Shown here piece after piece: positions 722-57,760 of a DNA stretch of 64,000 nt (positions are counted from its first letter, which is position 1; each line of letters opens with the position of its first letter). Both the position numbers and the translations under genes were made by a program. The notes below the pieces were generated by a model. The model was not told the DNA's origin. It saw only the letters and a program-made list of their open reading frames with translations, and searched no databases. The stretch lies in NCBI RefSeq assembly GCF_009363655.1, contig NZ_CP045393.1:3968001-4032000 (forward strand), read 5' to 3'. The DNA comes from Roseovarius sp. THAF27. GTDB taxonomy: Bacteria > Pseudomonadota > Alphaproteobacteria > Rhodobacterales > Rhodobacteraceae.

Positions 722-1788
722 CGGCTCAAGCCGCCATGCAGCGTCGGCACATCCAGCGCCGCGAAGCCGTAGTGCCGCAGCCACCGCAGGTCCGAATCAA
801 AGAAAGCCCGCAGGTCCGGGATGCCGTATTTCAGCATCGCGATCCGGTCGATCCCCATGCCGAAGGCAAAGCCCTGCCATTCATCCGGGTCGATCCCGCC
901 CGAGCGCAGCACATGCGGATGCACCATGCCCGACCCCAGCACTTCCAGCCAGTCGTCGCCCTCGCCCACCTTGACCGTGCCGCCTTCAAAGGCGCACTGG
1001 ATGTCCACCTCCGCCGACGGTTCGGTGAAGGGAAAGTGCGAGGCCCGGAAACGGGTCTTCACCGAGGTGCCGAAATAGGCGGTGAAGAACTCCTCCAGTA
1101 CCCATTTCAGGTTCGCCATCGAGATATCCTTGTCGATGGCCAGCCCTTCGACCTGGTGGAACATCGGCGTGTGGGTCTGGTCGTAATCGGCGCGATAGAC
1201 GCGGCCCGGCGCGATGATCCGGCAAGGCGCGCCGTGTTTTTCCAGGTGCCGGATCTGCACCGGCGAGGTGTGCGTGCGCAGCACGTCGGGCGCGCGGTCG
1301 TCCCCTTCGGCCCGATGCATATAGAACGTGTCCATCTCGGCCCGCGCCGGGTGGTGGCTGGGGATGTTCAGCGCGTCGAAATTGTACCAGTCGGTGTCGA
1401 TCTGCGGCCCCTCGGCCACGGCGAACCCCATGTCGGCGAAGATCGCCGTGACTTCCTCGGTCACCTGGCTGATCGGGTGGATCGTGCCTTGCCGCCGCGG
1501 CCGTCCCGGCAGGGTCACGTCCAGCCATTCCTCGCGCAGCCGTTCGTCCAGCGCGGCATCCGCCAGCGCCACCTTCTTGGCCGCCAGCGCAGAGTTGATC
1601 TCGTCCTTCAGCGCGTTCAGCTTCGGCCCCATCTCCTGCCGCTCTTCGGGCGTCATCTTGCCCAGCTCGCGCATCTTCAGCGCGACTTCGCCCTTCTTGC
1701 CCACGGCCTGCACGCGCAGATCCTCCAGCGCGGCCTCGTCACCGGCCTCGGCAATGGCACTCAGGTACTTGTCTCTCAGGTCATCCAT
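718..1788 (-). CDS. pheS: Phenylalanine--tRNA ligase alpha subunit
   Basis: Catalytic alpha subunit of the (alpha-beta)2 phenylalanyl-tRNA synthetase, which charges tRNA-Phe in the cytoplasm. The 356 residues are normal length. The N-terminal ~90 residues form the charged coiled-coil that binds tRNA. The class II core follows, with motif 2 ([20 protein letters not shown], roughly residues 195-215) and motif 3 near the C terminus ([18 protein letters not shown]). HTSPVQIR and the [10 protein letters not shown] stretch are typical of PheS. The beta-subunit gene pheT is not next to it in this window; the downstream gene is a small membrane protein with a GTGA overlap. Confidence 0.98.
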
Positions 1789-11761: not shown

Positions 11762-12934
11762 ATGACACTCGACATCGCCCGCCTGCGCGCCGACACCCCC
11801 GCCTGCGAAACGCTCCTGCACTTCAACAACGCGGGGGCGGGCCTGATGCCCTTGCCGGTGCAACAGGCCCTGTCGGATCACCTCGCGCTCGAGGCGCGCA
11901 TCGGCGGGTACGAGGCGCACGCCGAAGCCAAGGCACAGGCCGACGCCTTCTACACCGAGATGGCGGCGCTGCTGAACGCCAAGCCATCCGAAATCGCCTA
12001 TATCGAGAACGCCACCCGTGCCTGGGACATGGCCTTCTTCAGCCTGCCCTTGCAACCCGGCGACCGCATCCTGACCCATGCCTCGGAATACGTGTCGAAC
12101 TATCTCGGCCTGCTGCTTCAGGCCCAGCGCCGCGGGCTGAAGATTGACCTTATCCCGTCGGATGACAACGGGCAGGTCGATGTCGACGCGATTCAGTCTC
12201 TGATGCAGCCCAAAACGCGTCTCATTGCCCTCACCCACGTCCCCACCCAAGGCGGTCTCGTGAACCCGGCGGAAGAGGTCGGGCGCATCGCCCGCGAGCA
12301 TGGCCTGACCTACCTGCTGGATGCCTGCCAGTCGGCGGGCCAGATCGACCTCGACGTCGAAAAGCTCGGCTGCGACATGCTCTCTGGCACCGGCCGCAAG
12401 TACCTGCGCGGCCCGCGCGGCACCGGGTTTCTCTACGTACGCGACGGTCTGGTCGAGGATCTCGATCCGCCCTTCATCGACCTGCTCTCAGCCACCTGGA
12501 CCGGCCCTGACAGCTTTGAACTCGCCCCCGATGCCAAGCGCTTCGAAAACTGGGAGCGCTATGTGGCCGGCCAGATCGGCCTCGGCACCGCCGCCCGTTA
12601 TGCCCGGGAGATCGGGCTGCCCGCCATCGAGGCCCGCGTCGCCGATCTGGGCGAGGCCCTGCGCAGCGCGCTTCGCGATATCCCCGGCGTGACGGTCCAC
12701 GATCTGGGCCAGCGCAGATGCGGCATCGTGACCTTCACCCATGACGCCCGGACGCCGCGCGAGGTGACCGGCGCCTTGCGGGCACGGAATATCAACATCT
12801 CCGTTTCCAACCGCACCAGCGCCCAGCTCGATCTCGGCGCCCGCGGTCTCGACCATCTCGCCCGCGCCTCGGTTCACGCCTACAACACCGAGGACGAGAT
12901 CACGCGCTTCGCAGCCGCCGTCGCCGCGCTCTGA
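11762..12934 (+). CDS. Class V aminotransferase (PLP-dependent)
   Basis: A 390-residue fold-type I PLP enzyme of the NifS/isopenicillin epimerase kind. The PLP lysine is in [20 protein letters not shown] (about residue 215), the PLP aspartate in [13 protein letters not shown], and the phosphate-binding region in [12 protein letters not shown]. The C-terminal domain is complete. It could act as a transaminase, lyase or epimerase on a small amino compound. It is not a cysteine desulfurase of the IscS type, because the usual catalytic-cysteine loop is not seen. Last gene of the plus-strand group starting at 10264. Confidence 0.88.
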
Positions 12935-12980: not shown

Positions 12981-13024
12981 TACCGACGCGATACCACTCG
13001 AATACCGACGCAATACTGACGTGC
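12981..13024. repeat. Four-unit 11-bp-period intergenic element, copy 1
   Basis: Four consecutive 11-mers: TACCGACGCGA, TACCACTCGAA, TACCGACGCAA, TACTGACGTGC. A TTAACC follows at 13035-13040. The element lies in the gap between two convergent genes (ends at 12934 and 13051). A second copy in the opposite orientation is at 56194-56237. Confidence 0.85.
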
Positions 13025-13050
13025 GATTCCAGCGTTAACCCGCGATTCGC

Positions 13051-13914
13051 TCAGACAGCGACCTTCCGGCTTTCCTCGATGTAGATTTCGCGCAACCGCG
13101 TCGCCACCGCTCCCGGCGTCCCTTCCCCCAGGCTGGCCCCGTCGATCTCGACCACCGGCATCACGAAAGCACTGGCCGAGGTGACGAACGCCTCGTCGGC
13201 GTCCTTGGCTTCCTCGACGCTGAAATTCCGTTCCTCCACCTGCATTTGCGCCTCTTCGGCAAAGCGCAGCACGGCGGCGCGGGTGATTCCGTGCAGGATG
13301 TCGTTCGACAGCGCCCGGGTGATGATCTTGCCGTCCTTGACGATATAGGCGTTGTTCGACGTGCCTTCGGTCACACACCCGTCCTGCACCATCCAGGCAT
13401 CGTCGCACCCCGCCTTCTTGGCCATCATCTTGCCCATCGACGGATACAGAAGCTGCGTCGTCTTGATGTCCCGACGGCCCCAGCGCAGATCTTCCAAGGT
13501 GATGATCTTGATGCCTTTTTTCGCCACCGGATTGTCGGCCAGCCCGGGCTTCGACTGGGTGAACAGAACCACGGTCGGCGGCGTGTCGGGGTCCGGGTAG
13601 GCAAAGTCCCGGTCGCCCGGCGCGCCCCGCGTGATCTGAAGGTAAACCAGCCCGTCCTCGATCTCGTTCACCCGCACCAGCTCGCGGTGGATCTCCAGCA
13701 GATCGCCCATCACCGCCGGGTGCGGCATGTCCAGCTCGTCCAGCGACCGTTGCAGCCGGCGATTGTGCCCCTCGAAATCGATCAGCTTTCCGTCCAGCAC
13801 GCTGGTCACCTCGTAGACCCCGTCGCCCATCAGGAACGCCCGGTCGAAAATCGAGATTTTGGCTTCGTTCTCAGGCAGGTAATCGCCGTTCACATACACG
13901 GTTCGCATCGTCAT
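13051..13914 (-). CDS. D-amino-acid transaminase (class IV aminotransferase)
   Basis: PLP enzyme moving amino groups between D-amino acids and 2-oxo acids. Class IV features: YVNGDYLPENEAKISIFDRAFLMGDGVYEV near the N terminus, the PLP lysine in DIKTTQLLYPSMGKMMAKKAG (about residue 145), and GCVTEGTSNNAYIVKDGKIITRALSNDILHGITR. The sequence resembles D-alanine aminotransferases rather than IlvE (a separate ilvE is at 46866). The start at 13914 forms an ATGA overlap with the dgcA stop; ATGs at 13920 and 13908 are alternatives. The overlap ties it to D-amino-acid metabolism. Confidence 0.88.
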   Translation of the reverse strand: MTMRTVYVNGDYLPENEAKISIFDRAFLMGDGVYEVTSVLDGKLIDFEGHNRRLQRSLDELDMPHPAVMGDLLEIHRELVRVNEIEDGLVYLQITRGAPGDRDFAYPDPDTPPTVVLFTQSKPGLADNPVAKKGIKIITLEDLRWGRRDIKTTQLLYPSMGKMMAKKAGCDDAWMVQDGCVTEGTSNNAYIVKDGKIITRALSNDILHGITRAAVLRFAEEAQMQVEERNFSVEEAKDADEAFVTSASAFVMPVVEIDGASLGEGTPGAVATRLREIYIEESRKVAV

Positions 13915-14876
13915 CCCCATAGCTTGGCCGAGGGCGGATGCACCCCGGCCGCGTCGAAAATCAAAGGTTCGTCCCGGTCTTCGGCCAACAGCAGCGGCCC
14001 GTCAAGGTCGGTCACCGTCGCACCCTGCGCCACCAGCACCGCGGGCGCCATCGCAAGGCTCGATCCGATCATGCAGCCCACCATCACGTCGTACCCTTCG
14101 GCCAGCGCCGCCGCGCGCAGCGCCAGCGCCTCGGTCAGCCCGCCGGTCTTGTCCAGCTTGATGTTCACCATGTCGTACTTGCCCTTCAACCCTGGCAGGC
14201 TGGCGCGGTCGTGACAGCTCTCGTCGGCGCAAACCGGCACGGGCCGCTCCACCCCCAGGAGCGCGTCATCCTCCGCCGCCGGCAAGGGCTGTTCCACCAG
14301 CGCTACGCCCAGGCGTTGAAGGTGCGGCGCAAGGTCGGCATAGACCTCGGCGCTCCAACCCTCGTTGGCATCAACTATGATCTTGGCCTCGGGCGCGCCC
14401 GCGCGCACGGCCTCCAGCCGCGGCATGTCATCGGGCGTGCCCAGCTTGATCTTCAGCAAGGGCCGATGGGCATTCTTCGCTGCCTGCTCCCGCATCTTCT
14501 CGGGGTCGTCCAGCGACAGCGTATAGGCCGTGATCTCGGGCCCCGGCGCGTGCAATCCGGCCAGGTCCCAGACCCGCTTTCCGGCCTGTTTCGCCTGCAG
14601 ATCCCACAGCGCGCAATCCACCGCGTTCCGTGCCGCGCCCGCCGGTAACAAATCGTAAAGCTTTTCGCGGGAAACTTCCTCGGGCAGGCTCTCGATCTGC
14701 GCCGTCACGCTGTCCAATGTCTCGTCATACCGCGCATAGGGCACGCATTCGCCCCACCCGGTGACGCCGCCTTCGGTCACGCACACGGTCAGAACCTTCG
14801 CCTCGGTGCGCGAGCCCCGGCTGATGGTGAACACCTGCGCCAGCTTGAACACATCGCGCGTCACGGAAATCTGCAT
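13911..14876 (-). CDS. dgcA: N-acetyl-D-glutamate racemase DgcA (enolase-superfamily dipeptide-epimerase fold)
   Basis: Member of the enolase superfamily, L-Ala-D/L-Glu epimerase branch, 321 residues. Catalytic lysine is in LLKIKLG, metal ligands in IIVDANEGW, VEQPLP and CADESCHD, and the second catalytic lysine in VNIKLDKTGG. Next to dgcN it matches the DgcN-DgcA pair described for D-glutamate use in marine proteobacteria, where DgcA racemises N-acetyl-D-glutamate. ATG at 14876 is chosen (AGAGGG upstream); a longer frame to 14933 lacks family similarity. Dipeptide epimerase activity remains possible. Confidence 0.85.
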   Translation of the reverse strand: MQISVTRDVFKLAQVFTISRGSRTEAKVLTVCVTEGGVTGWGECVPYARYDETLDSVTAQIESLPEEVSREKLYDLLPAGAARNAVDCALWDLQAKQAGKRVWDLAGLHAPGPEITAYTLSLDDPEKMREQAAKNAHRPLLKIKLGTPDDMPRLEAVRAGAPEAKIIVDANEGWSAEVYADLAPHLQRLGVALVEQPLPAAEDDALLGVERPVPVCADESCHDRASLPGLKGKYDMVNIKLDKTGGLTEALALRAAALAEGYDVMVGCMIGSSLAMAPAVLVAQGATVTDLDGPLLLAEDRDEPLIFDAAGVHPPSAKLWG

Positions 14877-34047: not shown

Positions 34048-34619
34048 AGCCCGGTTCGAGGAGGAATGCCGTGGGCTGGGCTATGAAGACCAAGGGCTAC
34101 AATCAGCGACGCGCCTGTGCGCTGGCCGGGATCGAACCGCGTGTGTATCGGCGCAAGACGAAGCGACCGGAGGACACAGAGCTGCGCGCTCGGATGAAGG
34201 AACTGGCTTCTGAACGGCGGCGGTTCGGGTATCGTCGGCTGCATATTCTGCTAAGGCGCGAAGGCTGGGAGCTCAATTGGAAGAAGCTCTATCGTGTCTA
34301 CCGCGAAGAAGGGTTAACCGTTCGTAAACGGGGCGGTCGCAAGCGTGCGGTGGGCACCAGAACGCCGATGGCGATACCGCAGGGACCGAACCAGCGGTGG
34401 TCACTCGACTTCATGTCCGACGCGCTTGAGGACGGTCGCAGGTTCCGGGTGCTGAACGTCATTGACGACTTCACCCGGGAATGCCTGGCAGCTGTCGTCG
34501 ACACATCAATCGGCGGTGCACGTGTCGCCCGCGAGCTGGACCGTATCGCAGAACTGCGCGGCTACCCTTGCATGGTGGTCAGCGACAACGGCACCGAGCT
34601 GACCTCGAATGCGATGCTG
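34042..34619 (+). pseudogene. IS3-family transposase OrfB, truncated
   Basis: The integrase core is recognisable: RRFGYRRLHILLRREGWELNWKKLYRVYREEGL, then WSLDFMSDAL with the first catalytic aspartate, VLNVIDDFTRECLA, and VVSDNGTELTSNAML with the second aspartate. The expected continuation carrying the catalytic glutamate is replaced at about 34620 by unrelated sequence, which stays open until 34769. Non-functional. Confidence 0.85.
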
Positions 34620-34620
34620 A

Positions 34621-34764
34621 CCCGGATACCGGAATCGGCTTTGGCTACGTCTGCAATCACCTCTTTCAGCCTGATTCAAAAACACGTTCCATCATCGGGG
34701 AACGAGCCGCCCATCTCGCCAAGATTCTTTACGATTGCCTACCGTAACCTCAGGGAGTTCATTC
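34621..34764. other. Unassigned sequence between IS3 break and IS6-like remnant
   Basis: About 144 bases. In one plus frame it reads FGYVCNHLFQPDSKTRSIIGERAAHLAKILYDCLP before a stop, which looks like the C-terminal end of some protein I do not recognise, possibly another transposase. Confidence 0.25.
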
Positions 34765-34968
34765 AATGACCGAGGGGGCTGTTGCGCTAGTAGTTCCAGG
34801 GTGCATCTGTCCCTTCGCATCAATGGCGCGCCACAGAAACCGCCACTTGCCACCGACGCGAATGTAGGTCTCATCTGCATGCCTATCGACGCTCGCACGG
34901 CGCTGGTGCTTCTCCGACAGAAACCTGTCGCGCGCAGTTGATCAATGCAACAGTCCCGTTCGGTCATT
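34765..34968 (-). mobile_element. Miniature IS6-like remnant with terminal inverted repeats
   Basis: About 204 bases bounded by imperfect inverted repeats: AATGACCGA..GGG.CTGTTGC at the left (34765-34785) and its complement at the right (34948-34968), the right strand reading AATGACCGAACGGGACTGTTGC. Inside, the minus strand encodes an IS6-type transposase fragment (RFLSEKHQRRASVDRHADETYIRV, GGKWRFLWRAIDAKGQM). Most of the transposase is deleted, leaving a MITE-like derivative. Confidence 0.6.
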
Positions 34969-54597: not shown

Positions 54598-54961
54598 GAG
54601 TGTCTCCCCATATGTTTTTTCGTCGCGGTTGTTCCGCGTTTAGCTGGAAATAAAGCCAGTTTCCGCCGGCGATGCAAGCAAACTCATTGAGTTTTTCCAC
54701 AGCAGGCATCTCCGAAGGAAAATTAACCAAGGTCGCCCGGATTTAAGTCAGATTTCCTGCCTGATGACGCATCGCTGGCCTGTTGGTCCCCTGTTCACAG
54801 TGCTTGCATCGGGCAAGGGCGCCCGCAAGCGTTCATTCCGGGACCCCACCAAGGTTCTGTCTATCAAGTTTTTTTTCGTGCATTCCTGTCGTCCAGCAGG
54901 CACCTTCGGGGCATCCCGGCACGTGCTGTCCGGCCCGACCAAGACGAGGAGCGATCAGACC
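54598..54961. other. 364-bp divergent intergenic region
   Basis: Separates the transporter operon (minus) from the M24-family gene (plus). It contains AT-rich parts near 54600-54760 and a run of eight T at 54869-54876. The open frame from 54764 lacks similarity to the M24 family until 54962. Probably holds both promoters; no clear operator seen. Confidence 0.4.
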
Positions 54962-56143
54962 ATGAAAGACCTGCCCTTCACCCCCGTAGAGTACGACCGC
55001 CGCCTCAAGCGGGCACGGGCCGCGATGGAAGAACGCGGGCTTGATGCGGTCTTTATCACGGACCCGTCCAACCAGAACTGGCTGACCGGCTATGACGGCT
55101 GGTCCTTCTACGTGCACCAAGGCGCGATCCTGACGATGGACGGCCCGCCCCTGTGGTGGGGCCGACACATGGACATGCTGGGGGGTCGCAGGACCTGCTG
55201 GATGGAGAATGATTTCATCCTCGGATATGGTGACCATTTCGTGCAGTCGACCGAGCGGCATCCGATGCAGGACCTGGCAGAAGTGCTCAAGCGGTACGGG
55301 CTGGAGACGGCGACGATCGGGGTGGAGATGGAGAACTACTACTACTCCGCCAAGGCCCATGCCGTGCTTTGCGCCGAGATGCCGAATGCCAAGATCGTCG
55401 ACGCTACAACGCTGGTGAACTGGCAGCGGATCGTGAAGTCCGAGGAAGAACTGGTGCTGATCCGCAAGGCGGCGCGCATCTCGGAAAAGGTCATGCGCAC
55501 CGCCATCGACATGGCCGAGCCGGGACTGCGCAAGAACGACCTTGTGGCCAGCATTCTGAAGGCCGGGATCGAGGGCGTGGACGACGACTGGGGCGACTAT
55601 CCGGCGATCATGCCGCTGACGCCCTCGGGCCTTGACGCCACCGCGGCGCACCTGACCTGGAACGGCAACCCGATGCAGCCGGGCGAGGCGACTTTCTTTG
55701 AGCTTTCAGGGTGTTACCGCCGCTATCACGCGCCTCTGTGCCGCACCGTGTTCCTTGGCGGCGAGCCGCCGCAGGACATTCGCGACGCCGAAAAGGCGCA
55801 GCTGGAAGGCATCGAGGCGGGGCTGGACGCGGCGCGGCCCGGCAACCGCACCTGCGACATCGCGCAGGCCCTGCTGGACGTGCTGGCCAAGTACGAGATC
55901 AAGCGGGAAGGGCGCATGGGCTACCCCGTCGGCGTCAGCTATCCGCCGGACTGGGGCGAGCGGACGGCGTCGATCCGGCTGGAGGACGAGACGGTGCTGG
56001 AACCCGGCATGGTGTTCCACTTCATGCCTGCGCTGTGGATGGACACCTGGGGTCTGGAGACGACCGAGACGATCCTGATCAACGAGGACGGCCCGGCGGA
56101 ATGCCTGTGCAACATGCCCCGGCAGATGTTCGTCAAGGACTGA
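54962..56143 (+). CDS. doeA: M24-family peptidase-fold protein, ectoine hydrolase (DoeA/EutD)-like
   Basis: A 393-residue protein with a creatinase N-terminal domain and an M24 'pita-bread' domain. It carries the segments typical of ectoine hydrolase: FITDPSNQNWLTGYDGWSFYVHQGA, WWGRHMDMLGGRRTCWM, FVQSTERHPMQDL and IGVEMENYYYSAKAH. The metal ligands of true M24 peptidases appear replaced: FFELSGCYRRYHAPLCRT in place of two aspartate sites, YPVGVSYPPDW in place of the histidine, VFHFMPALW in place of the glutamate. This suggests a metal-independent, creatinase-like enzyme. ATG at 54962, GAGGAG upstream. Other M24 amide hydrolases cannot be excluded. Confidence 0.8.
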   Translation: MKDLPFTPVEYDRRLKRARAAMEERGLDAVFITDPSNQNWLTGYDGWSFYVHQGAILTMDGPPLWWGRHMDMLGGRRTCWMENDFILGYGDHFVQSTERHPMQDLAEVLKRYGLETATIGVEMENYYYSAKAHAVLCAEMPNAKIVDATTLVNWQRIVKSEEELVLIRKAARISEKVMRTAIDMAEPGLRKNDLVASILKAGIEGVDDDWGDYPAIMPLTPSGLDATAAHLTWNGNPMQPGEATFFELSGCYRRYHAPLCRTVFLGGEPPQDIRDAEKAQLEGIEAGLDAARPGNRTCDIAQALLDVLAKYEIKREGRMGYPVGVSYPPDWGERTASIRLEDETVLEPGMVFHFMPALWMDTWGLETTETILINEDGPAECLCNMPRQMFVKD

Positions 56144-56193
56144 CGCGAATCGGCCGGCGGAAACCCTGGTTAATGCCGGCGGGGTGCCGAAAA

Positions 56194-56237
56194 CCACGTC
56201 GGTATCGCGTCGGTATTTGCGTGGTATGCCGTCGGTG
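56194..56237. repeat. Four-unit 11-bp-period intergenic element, copy 2 (inverted)
   Basis: On the minus strand: CACCGACGGCA, TACCACGCAAA, TACCGACGCGA, TACCGACGTGG. TTAACC follows at 56173-56168. As in copy 1 (12981-13024), it sits between two convergent genes. Confidence 0.85.
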
Positions 56238-56305: not shown

Positions 56306-57703
56306 TCAGCTCGCCGCCTTCATCAGACCTTCATCTTTCAGTTGCTTGTGCGCGAGGTCGAGCGCGAGGTTCGCGCGTTCGACCAGGGTGTCGATCTCGG
56401 ACTTGGAGATGACCAGCGGCGGCGAGATGACCATGCGGTCGCCCACGTGGCGCATGATCAGGCCGTTCGAGAAACAATGCTCGCGGCAGATAAGACCGGC
56501 GGTGCCGGCCTCGGCGGCGAACCTGGCGCGGCTGGCCTTGTCGGGGCTGAGCGCGATGGAGCCCATCATGCCGCAGATTGCCGCCTCACCCACCAGCGGG
56601 TGGTCGGCCAGGGTTTCCCATTTTTCCTTCAGGTAGGGCGCGGTTTCCGCGCCGACGCGGGTGACGATGCCTTCCTCGTCGAGGATGCGCAGGTTTTCCA
56701 GCGCAACGGCACAGGTCACCGGGTGGCCCGAATAGGTGTAGCCATGGGCGAATTCGCAACTGTTCAGCACCTCGGCCACCTCGTCGCTGACCAGCGAGCC
56801 GCCGATGGGCGCGTAGCCCGAGCTGACGCCCTTGGCGATGGTCATGACGTCGGGCTTGATGTCGAAGGTTTCCGAGCCGAACCACTTGCCGGTGCGCCCG
56901 AAGCCGCAGATCACCTCGTCGGCGATCAGAAGGATGTTGTACTTGCGGCAGATGCGCTGGATTTCCGGCCAGTAGGTTTCGGGCGGAACGATCACGCCAC
57001 CGGCGCCCTGCACCGGCTCGCCGATGAAGGCGGCGACCTTGTCTTCGCCCAGTTCGAGGATCTTCTGCTCGAGTTGGCGGGCGCGTTCCAGGCCGAATTC
57101 GACTGGATCAGTGTCTTTTCCCTCGCCGTACCAATAGGGCTGGTCGATATGGTGGATGTCCGGGATCGGCATACCGCCCTGCGCGTGCATCGCGGACATG
57201 CCCCCCAGCGAGGCGCTGCCCATGGACGAGCCGTGATAGGCGTTCTTGCGGCTGATGATTGCCTTTTTCTCGGGGTGGCCCTTTTGTTCCCAATAGGTGC
57301 GCACGAGCCGGATATTGGTGTCGTTCGCCTCGGACCCGGAAGAAGCAAAGAACACGTGGTTGAGGTCATGCGGCGTCAGTTGCGCCAGACGGTCGGCCAG
57401 CGCGATGGCGGGCACATGGGTCGTCTGGAAGAACGTGTTGTAGTAGGGCAGTTCCTTCATCTGGCGGGCAGCGGCGTCGGCCAGTTCCTCGCGGCCATAG
57501 CCGATGTTGACACACCACAGCCCCGCCATGGCGTCGAGATAGTCATGCCCCTCGCTGTCGGTCAGGGTCACGCCCTTGGCGCGGGTGATGACGCGCGCGC
57601 CCTTCTTGTTGAGCGCGTGGCCGTGGGTGAAGGGGTGCAGGTGATGCGCGGCATCCAGCGCCTGAAGCTCGGCAGTGGGCATGTGATTGGTGATGGCGGT
57701 CAT
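56306..57703 (-). CDS. spuC: Class III aminotransferase, putrescine--pyruvate transaminase (SpuC)-like
   Basis: A 465-residue PLP enzyme of the omega-amino group. PLP sites: FFASSGSEANDTNIRLVRTYW, the aspartate in LLIADEVICGFGRTGKWFG and the lysine in MTIAKGVSSGYAPIGG. Sequence and setting (next to polyamine transport genes and a PuuB-like oxidase) fit putrescine or related diamine transamination to 4-aminobutanal. The ATG at 57703 is preceded by GAAAGG; 57718 is an alternative. The GntR gene lies directly upstream on the same strand. Confidence 0.85.
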   Translation of the reverse strand: MTAITNHMPTAELQALDAAHHLHPFTHGHALNKKGARVITRAKGVTLTDSEGHDYLDAMAGLWCVNIGYGREELADAAARQMKELPYYNTFFQTTHVPAIALADRLAQLTPHDLNHVFFASSGSEANDTNIRLVRTYWEQKGHPEKKAIISRKNAYHGSSMGSASLGGMSAMHAQGGMPIPDIHHIDQPYWYGEGKDTDPVEFGLERARQLEQKILELGEDKVAAFIGEPVQGAGGVIVPPETYWPEIQRICRKYNILLIADEVICGFGRTGKWFGSETFDIKPDVMTIAKGVSSGYAPIGGSLVSDEVAEVLNSCEFAHGYTYSGHPVTCAVALENLRILDEEGIVTRVGAETAPYLKEKWETLADHPLVGEAAICGMMGSIALSPDKASRARFAAEAGTAGLICREHCFSNGLIMRHVGDRMVISPPLVISKSEIDTLVERANLALDLAHKQLKDEGLMKAAS

Positions 57704-57760
57704 GGCGAAACCTTTCATGATCGGAGGGTCGGACGGGGCGCACCGGTCCGTTTGTCCCAG

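Follow-up and report, generated by a model that had tools for sequence, protein, structure and literature searches.

Replication-oriented arrays of four 11-bp units on a Roseovarius chromosome: candidate docking sites for a tandem-binding protein

What is a 44-bp intergenic element of four 11-bp units, and why does it occur twice, in inverted orientation, within one short stretch of a Roseovarius chromosome? The window, i.e., the whole stretch of 64,000 nucleotides that was analysed, corresponds to C1:3968001-4032000 of the 4.46-Mb genome of Roseovarius sp. THAF27 (G000 in the following). An initial annotation, made from these letters alone, had considered a chromosome-organisation site, a transcription barrier or a small mobile repeat. 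We scanned G000 genome-wide with R1, a sequence model built on 30 copies of the element. The two window copies and their surroundings are:

12981..13024 (+), copy 1, four 11-bp units (12981-12991, 12992-13002, 13003-13013 and 13014-13024, all +); R1 match G000:C1:3980977-3981032 (+)
13035..13040 (+), TTAACC 3' of copy 1, short-spacing form, 13 by the convention used across copies
13044..13049 (+), GATTCG of copy 1, 9 bases past the TTAACC start; adjoins the stop codon of the 13051-13920 gene
13051..13920 (-), class IV aminotransferase gene; its 3' end abuts copy 1
54764..56143 (+), M24/creatinase-type peptidase gene, domains matched in 54962-56140; its 3' end abuts copy 2
56146..56151 (-), GATTCG further 3' of copy 2; adjoins the stop codon of the 54764-56143 gene
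56168..56173 (-), TTAACC 3' of copy 2, 23 by the convention used across copies
56194..56237 (-), copy 2, four 11-bp units; R1 match G000:C1:4024186-4024238 (-)

Both copies were confirmed letter for letter (12981-13024 on the plus, 56237-56194 on the minus strand), and so was the TTAACC after each, at a gap of 10 bases in copy 1 and 20 bases in copy 2. In copy 2, GATTCG begins 22 bases past the TTAACC start, versus the usual 9-10. The called genes likewise bear out the convergent ends described around both copies: 11762-12934 (+) faces 13051-13920 (-) at copy 1, and 54764-56143 (+) faces 56306-57718 (-) at copy 2. With the window taken alone, the excess of arrays above chance is modest. TACCGACG was observed four times versus 1.12 expected, with 3 of 100 shuffles as high, and the two-unit pattern with up to three mismatches twice versus 0.61 expected, with 13 of 100 shuffles as high.

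The initial annotation had called for a search of the whole genome, and had regarded a dedicated function as unlikely should only these two copies, or copies within genes, be found. Neither was the case: R1 returned 50 clear copies in G000, scoring 71 to 30 bits, the next best match having 15.5 bits. According to a codon-usage gene caller trained on G000 sequence, which was applied to the other genomes too, 48 of them are free of called genes; of the other two, one reaches 2 bases into a called gene and one about 20 bases into the end of a gene. All 50 are located on the 4.195-Mb chromosome contig, and none was found on the five other contigs (about 266 kb), where about three would be expected by length. 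Exact TACCGACG-N3-TACCGACG two-unit sites were listed 27 times in G000; with three mismatches allowed, this pattern has 118 sites versus 66 for a reversed control.

The array, 41-44 bp long and present in 50 copies in 4.2 Mb, has the core CACCGtCGCgA-TACCACCCGGA-TACCGACGCGA-TACCGACGtG between A- and T-tracts. Across the 50 copies the layout is a GAAAA-like tract, units at 0/11/22/33, a TTT-like tract and then TTAACC. Of the 50 copies, 32 have an exact TTAACC no more than 45 bases to the 3' side of the array and 12 one no more than 80 bases to its 5' side; the 3' spacing falls into two classes, 23-27 or 12-15, about one helical turn apart. GA(T/G)TC follows 9-10 bases past the TTAACC start in 13 of the 50 copies, a TTAACC with one mismatch being counted here. 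GTTAACC is rare elsewhere: 502 kb contain 14 intergenic occurrences, of which two are at elements, and 4 genic ones. Some copies also show TTAA about 27 bases ahead of the array. CtrA, a further comparison for the TTAACC flanks, has TTAA-N7-TTAA as its full site. Arrays of two further genomes, G016 and G007, follow the same plan with differing unit details: TTAACC is present in 11 of 30 loci viewed in G016, 10 of them with a spacing of 25-26, and in 15 of 30 loci viewed in G007, 13 of them with a spacing of 13-14. The G007 elements (L164-L193) carry an extra conserved upstream block close to ACGTACGTTTCGTACG plus CACCGCGCGCCCTGTTAA (23 copies), with which the element is, by estimate, about 180 bp long.

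The array acts as DNA, not as RNA. It has no conserved RNA fold, the consensus fold consisting of 4 weak pairs, and no inverted repeat spanning the array or terminal inverted repeats were found, which agrees with the earlier remark that it is not a simple hairpin. Ten single folds gave a z of -2.6 for one copy 2 strand, about -1.2 for two others and values near 0 for the rest. An Rfam search with copy 1 and five other copies yielded no credible match to the array. Neither an intrinsic terminator (a GC stem-loop followed by a T run) nor a sigma-70-like promoter is present at either window copy. At another element (78189), a TPP riboswitch (RF00059, 57.7 bits; L001:1629-1717) was recognised nearby, upstream of a phosphomethylpyrimidine kinase gene.

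How are the copies arranged on the chromosome? GC skew puts the terminus of G000 near 2.2 Mb and its origin near C1:0. Close to this inferred origin, at 2.7-6.3 kb, are gyrB and a recF-like SMC_N/AAA gene, with an array between them. Read in the frame of the array, the local skew of the flanking 1.4 kb per side is negative for 48 of 50 copies in G000, 30 of 30 in G016, 37 of 39 in G012, 25 of 30 in G007 and 9 of 11 in G208. Here the G016 and G007 sets are the best-scoring 30 of 101 and of 65 matches, respectively, and one of 40 G012 loci had been removed by a length or score filter. This sums to 149 of 160 copies in five genomes, which are not independent as G012 and G000 share sites. Among convergent copies only, the agreement is 24/25 in G000, 18/18 in G012, 6/6 in G016 and 6/8 in G007. 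Since orientation tracks the local GC skew, it tracks the direction of replication. The global replichore is matched by 39 of 50 copies in G000 (p 9e-5), 68 of 92 in G016 (p 5e-6) and 13 of 17 in G094 (p 0.05), with the origin set at the contig start and the terminus near half the contig (2.22, 2.75 and 2.1 Mb); sampled skew fits these replichores in G000 and in G016, where one sample at 1.2 Mb is contrary, and G094 shows weak skew. Among control junctions that lack an array, 73-80% agree with the replichore. On the main contig of G208, which belongs to another genus and lay outside model building, 9 of 9 arrays are on the minus strand before and 4 of 4 on the plus strand after the skew switch.

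Eleven of the 50 G000 copies oppose the global replichore. Nine of them match their own local skew, as if the surrounding segments had been inverted along with their arrays; the remaining two are 877345 and, next to the inferred origin, 3780. An example is seen in the window itself. Here the skew around copy 1 is negative (-0.12 to -0.13), and that around copy 2 and beyond it is positive (+0.04 to +0.06); as it changes sign between the two, the copies are inverted because the surrounding DNA flipped. The inverted orientation that had drawn attention to this locus is thus real and accounted for. Between the copies, window positions 18000-54000 show weak or mixed skew and include an rve/HTH_21 (IS3-like) transposase (34071-34769); both are consistent with an inserted or rearranged segment.

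In G000, 35 of 41 copies with TTAACC agree with the replichore versus 4 of 9 without it (Fisher p 0.017, for a post hoc split). The bare arrays of G016 are oriented too, as its 30 of 30 loci in agreement with local skew, from mixed gene contexts, include only 11 with an exact TTAACC. The G000 copies are also evenly spaced, with a mean distance of 84 kb and a CV of 0.65 versus about 0.98 for random placement (p 0.0005), and with 2 gaps below 20 kb versus 10.6 expected. Even spacing is absent in G016 (CV 0.94; 32% of simulations as low).

With regard to genes, 24 of the 49 G000 copies with both neighbours called lie in convergent, 19 in co-directional and 6 in divergent junctions, while 424 background junctions comprise 80, 265 and 79, respectively. 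Convergent junctions are therefore enriched (24/49 vs 80/424, Fisher p 1e-5), and the convergent placement noted for both window copies holds genome-wide for 24 of 49 only. In 33 of the 49 the downstream gene reads toward the array, and in 29 of these 6-62 bases separate its stop from the end of the R1 match. These figures would suit a protein-dependent terminator or polar transcription roadblock that prevents read-through where genes end and is directed against the leading-strand gene. It would also suit the comparison with G012 described below, where 8 of the 9 sites with a lone shared neighbour share the downstream gene. The 3' side of the array faces a gene start in 16 of the 49 copies, though, neither window copy has an intrinsic terminator, and a barrier to transcription leaves both the even spacing and the orientation by replication unexplained. 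We consider this reading, the second of the three original suggestions, very improbable.

The proteins encoded next to the G000 arrays (70 of 99 scanned) are functionally mixed, and none of those scanned stands out as a candidate for a protein that reads the array. Neighbours that occur once include a Crp-type regulator (beside 3636701), a GntR/FCD regulator (beside 1216943), an HU-like protein (beside 285989) and a BrnA antitoxin (beside 3116493).

Are the copies maintained? G012, Roseovarius sp. MMSF_3350, has 50-51 copies, of which 40 were fetched in score order. Thirty-nine of these are located at G000 sites, 30 sharing both flanking genes and 9 only one (the downstream gene in 8, the upstream gene in 1), and one is unmatched. 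Over the 39 pairs, substitutions per column amount to about 1.1 in units 3-4, 3.9 in units 1-2 and 13.3 in the spacers. Unit counts refer to contact columns, the classes were picked after the data had been seen, and the four commonest substitution types per column were counted; two mis-anchored pairs (2761318/L319 and 2856464/L333, with an indel or weak array) were kept and inflate the counts. Unit bases are kept while spacers drift, which we read as the footprint of a sequence-specific protein. Judged by this contrast of slow units and fast spacers, the units are under selection, and the copies are not neutral relics, decaying or homogenised by conversion.

Some arrays lie in front of genes. 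For lpd we compared the best locus of 30 genomes of the genus (37 matched of 39 searched; the G000 locus is outside this set), calling genomes with 0-9 arrays array-poor. An array scoring 28-32 of 32 stands 58-60 bases ahead of the lpd start codon in G014, G016, G008, G196, G197, G007 and G194, all of them array-rich. A degraded version (25-27), 49-75 bases before the start codon, was found in G019, G188, G200, G004, G011, G017 and G022, all of them array-poor. The other 16 of the 30 have no trace of it (18-21); these are 14 array-poor genomes and the array-rich G021 and G006. The lpd array is thus eroded where the system is missing and kept where it is present, as if a trans-acting reader had been lost. 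By eye, lpd spacers with and without the array differ by about 48 bp. The same place before lpd is occupied in two other genera, by G139 and G208 (in the latter the gene was judged by its N-terminus). Further bare arrays in operon spacers of other genera were seen in G094, between serC and serA and before hisF, and, in one genome each, before trpC (G118), leuD (G111) and trpA (G164). G000 itself carries one some 0.7 kb downstream of lpd (G000:C1:3842869-3844254 / 3844988-3845041) and G012 one about 1 kb from it; G006, of the same clade as G000 and G012, has none before lpd.

These arrays suggest another explanation, namely operators of a regulon controlled by an OmpR/PhoB-type or other tandem-binding regulator, the convergent copies serving as decoys or in antisense control. 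Direct repeats with an 11-bp period are typical of OmpR-family sites, and for CenR of Rhodobacter PMC9275681 gives the site as a TGA-N8-TGA direct repeat. The lpd arrays of seven genomes and those before serA, hisF, trpC, trpA and leuD are placed as operators might be. Against this stand the 24 of 49 G000 copies between convergent gene ends, an orientation that tracks local GC skew and not the gene, the mixed contexts in G016, the lack of a sigma-70-like promoter at either window copy, and the functional mixture of the neighbouring proteins scanned. On balance a regulon of this kind seems unlikely to us. CenR was also considered as the reader itself and rejected: its period fits, and by eye the half-site of the array is CGA-N8-CGA versus TGA-N8-TGA in PMC9275681.

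The distribution of the array bears on its origin. In a census of 39 genomes of the genus with R2, a generic four-unit model, 13 have 25-92 arrays, 11 have 1-9 and 15 have none, where none means none by R2, as a diverged motif would escape it. With strict filters, and the own genome included in both, a family-wide sample gave 11 of 149 genomes at E 0.001, and a class-wide sample 3 of 289 at 1e-5, all in the same family. Among the genomes searched, the array is restricted to one family. Presence and absence can lie close together: in a single-gene tree (an aminotransferase, 29 genomes), G014 (78 arrays) is sister to G191 (0 arrays) with support 99/97, and one 12-kb region of the two is 72-88% identical over four aligned pieces. 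At one G014 site compared, G191 is without the array and its left flank has diverged, so that either gain or loss would fit.

Copy 1 can be followed in the same way. An array at the 3' end of the aminotransferase gene is also present in G006, G012 and G021 and in none of 25 other genus genomes examined; its TTAACC spacing is short in G000 and G006 and long in G012 and G021. The locus is empty in the array-rich G008, G016, G007 and G014, and array sites therefore turn over.

Several isolated occurrences were recorded as well. Contig JAAAPI010000392.1 (L069), filed under the Verrucomicrobia MAG GSL.Bin9, was retrieved by an exact match and carries the array; a gene on it shows 96% amino-acid identity to a G000 neighbour protein, and the contig is probably mis-binned Roseovarius DNA. 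An IMG/VR contig (L096) has an array scoring 32/32 and may be host DNA; its flanking gene end resembles, by eye, the array neighbour of Shimia sp. SK013 (L081). A blastn search of plasmid and phage collections with one 131-base query, of low sensitivity for a short and variable element, gave no match. In G021 (L194/L218) an ABC-F gene is bracketed by two inverted arrays at a distance of about 1.9 kb, in G007 (L165/L186) likewise by shared flanks, and in G208 (L414) an array lies beside the same kind of gene; the best model for these partial proteins is Uup, below the model cut-off. Finally, a full four-unit array is located inside the transketolase coding sequence of G016 (L154, about 1510-1550, minus strand); this transketolase is 97% identical to a Roseovarius indicus protein, which also has the array, and G016 is by this identity R. 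indicus or a close relative. The linker that holds the array equals in length its counterpart in the closest homologue without an array, which rules out a simple insertion there.

Could the arrays descend from a small mobile repeat that was inserted with a replication-strand bias, as single-strand-targeting elements are, and was later kept or left to decay? Near-identical bare arrays in unrelated contexts of G016, one of them within the transketolase gene, the difference of about 48 bp between lpd spacers and the patchy presence in the genus and at the copy 1 locus would all be in agreement with such a history. However, inverted terminal repeats, a hairpin and a conserved RNA fold are all missing from the array, 39 of 40 fetched sites are common to two species, the units change far more slowly than the spacers, the transketolase loop is as long as in the closest array-free homologue, and arrays are met again at lpd and uup in other genera. 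We regard this origin as quite unlikely. As far as a mobile repeat active between near relatives was suggested, the shared sites and the missing hairpin and terminal repeats speak against it; as array sites come and go over larger distances, a mobile origin long ago may still be conceived.

Our preferred reading, to which we give an even chance, is that the array is a docking site for a putative head-to-tail DNA-binding protein in replication-oriented chromosome organisation. Chromosome organisation is a better fit than gene control for the polarity, the shared positions, the spacing in G000 and a presence that is all or none; the bare arrays before start codons fit an operator role too. The existence of this reader is what we infer from the footprint. 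A dedicated sequence-specific protein, probably a dimer of dimers, would bind four half-sites arranged head to tail at a distance of one helical turn, of which two are strongly conserved and the other two less so. Their inequality and head-to-tail order, at a period of 11 bp, suggest winged-helix binding of the OmpR/PhoB type. About 50 such sites with A/T-tracts, often with TTAACC/GANTC, would mark the chromosome every 84 kb or so on average, the TACCGACG strand mostly reading 5'-3' toward the origin. Their role might then be that of an oriented roadblock or a loading or handover point for a translocating machine, candidates being the fork, an SMC-type or FtsK-type motor, or RNA polymerase.

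The early proposals of four proteins on one face of the DNA, as a prediction of binding, and of a chromosome-organisation role fit the footprint, the replication polarity and, in G000, the even spacing; the initial annotation is thereby supported in part, its active mobile-repeat suggestion not. A more specific version, possible yet clearly tentative, is that the roughly 50 evenly spaced, replication-oriented four-subunit arrays are a bacterial analogue, at the scale of a genus, of oriented boundary sites and show a translocating machine (an SMC-like loop extruder, the replisome or an FtsK-like motor) the direction of the chromosome, in a system gained and lost whole with one putative reader. 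The genus pairs genomes with dozens of arrays and genomes with none, e.g., G014 and G191, and so provides a natural experiment. The presence and absence pattern is a route to the reader protein and to what oriented sites do for a chromosome.

How does the array relate to known systems? Searches of the open PMC literature, in which papers other than the two on CenR (PMC9275681, PMC9561847) were judged from listings and abstract openings, gave no paper on this element. With OmpR/PhoB-family operators the array shares head-to-tail half-sites at an 11-bp period; it differs in its half-site, in having four units, in lying mostly off promoters, with 24 of 49 copies convergent and the bare lpd arrays as the exception, and in being oriented by replication. 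Like the Architecture IMparting Sequences (AIMS, PMC5993296), sequences thought to impose chromosome architecture, it may shape the chromosome; AIMS are 8-mers, without an 11-bp tandem array.

REP/BIME, ERIC and BOX repeats are, like the array, intergenic, modular and present in tens of copies, but the array has no palindrome and its units are under selection. Its positions are stable between the near relatives G000 and G012 (39 of 40 fetched sites); the copy 1 site is empty in four other array-rich genomes. The sites of Noc (NBS), SlmA (SBS) and MatP (matS) also occur in tens of dispersed copies, each read by one protein for chromosome organisation. They are palindromic and unoriented, whereas the array consists of direct repeats, forms no palindrome and is strongly oriented. 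Ter sites, bound by Tus, resemble it in being non-palindromic and protein-sized; their prevailing orientation per arm has a parallel in the array as a strong bias with exceptions (39/50, 68/92 and 13/17, and 13/13 on the G208 main contig). They are single sites centred on the terminus half, while the array is tandem and extends over both arms of the whole chromosome, including the copy between the recF-like gene and gyrB near the inferred origin. KOPS and SRS, the orienting sequences of FtsK and SpoIIIE, have in common with the array the orientation by replication on both arms. They are 8-mers in hundreds of copies, and FtsK is, to our knowledge, universal. The array, in contrast, is not a short and very frequent 8-mer, but a 44-bp four-unit element with spaced flanks, in about 50 copies and patchy within one family. 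Bacterial site families that combine an orientation by replication with a size suited to a dedicated multi-subunit complex are, as far as we know, few, and the array would be a candidate for this small group.
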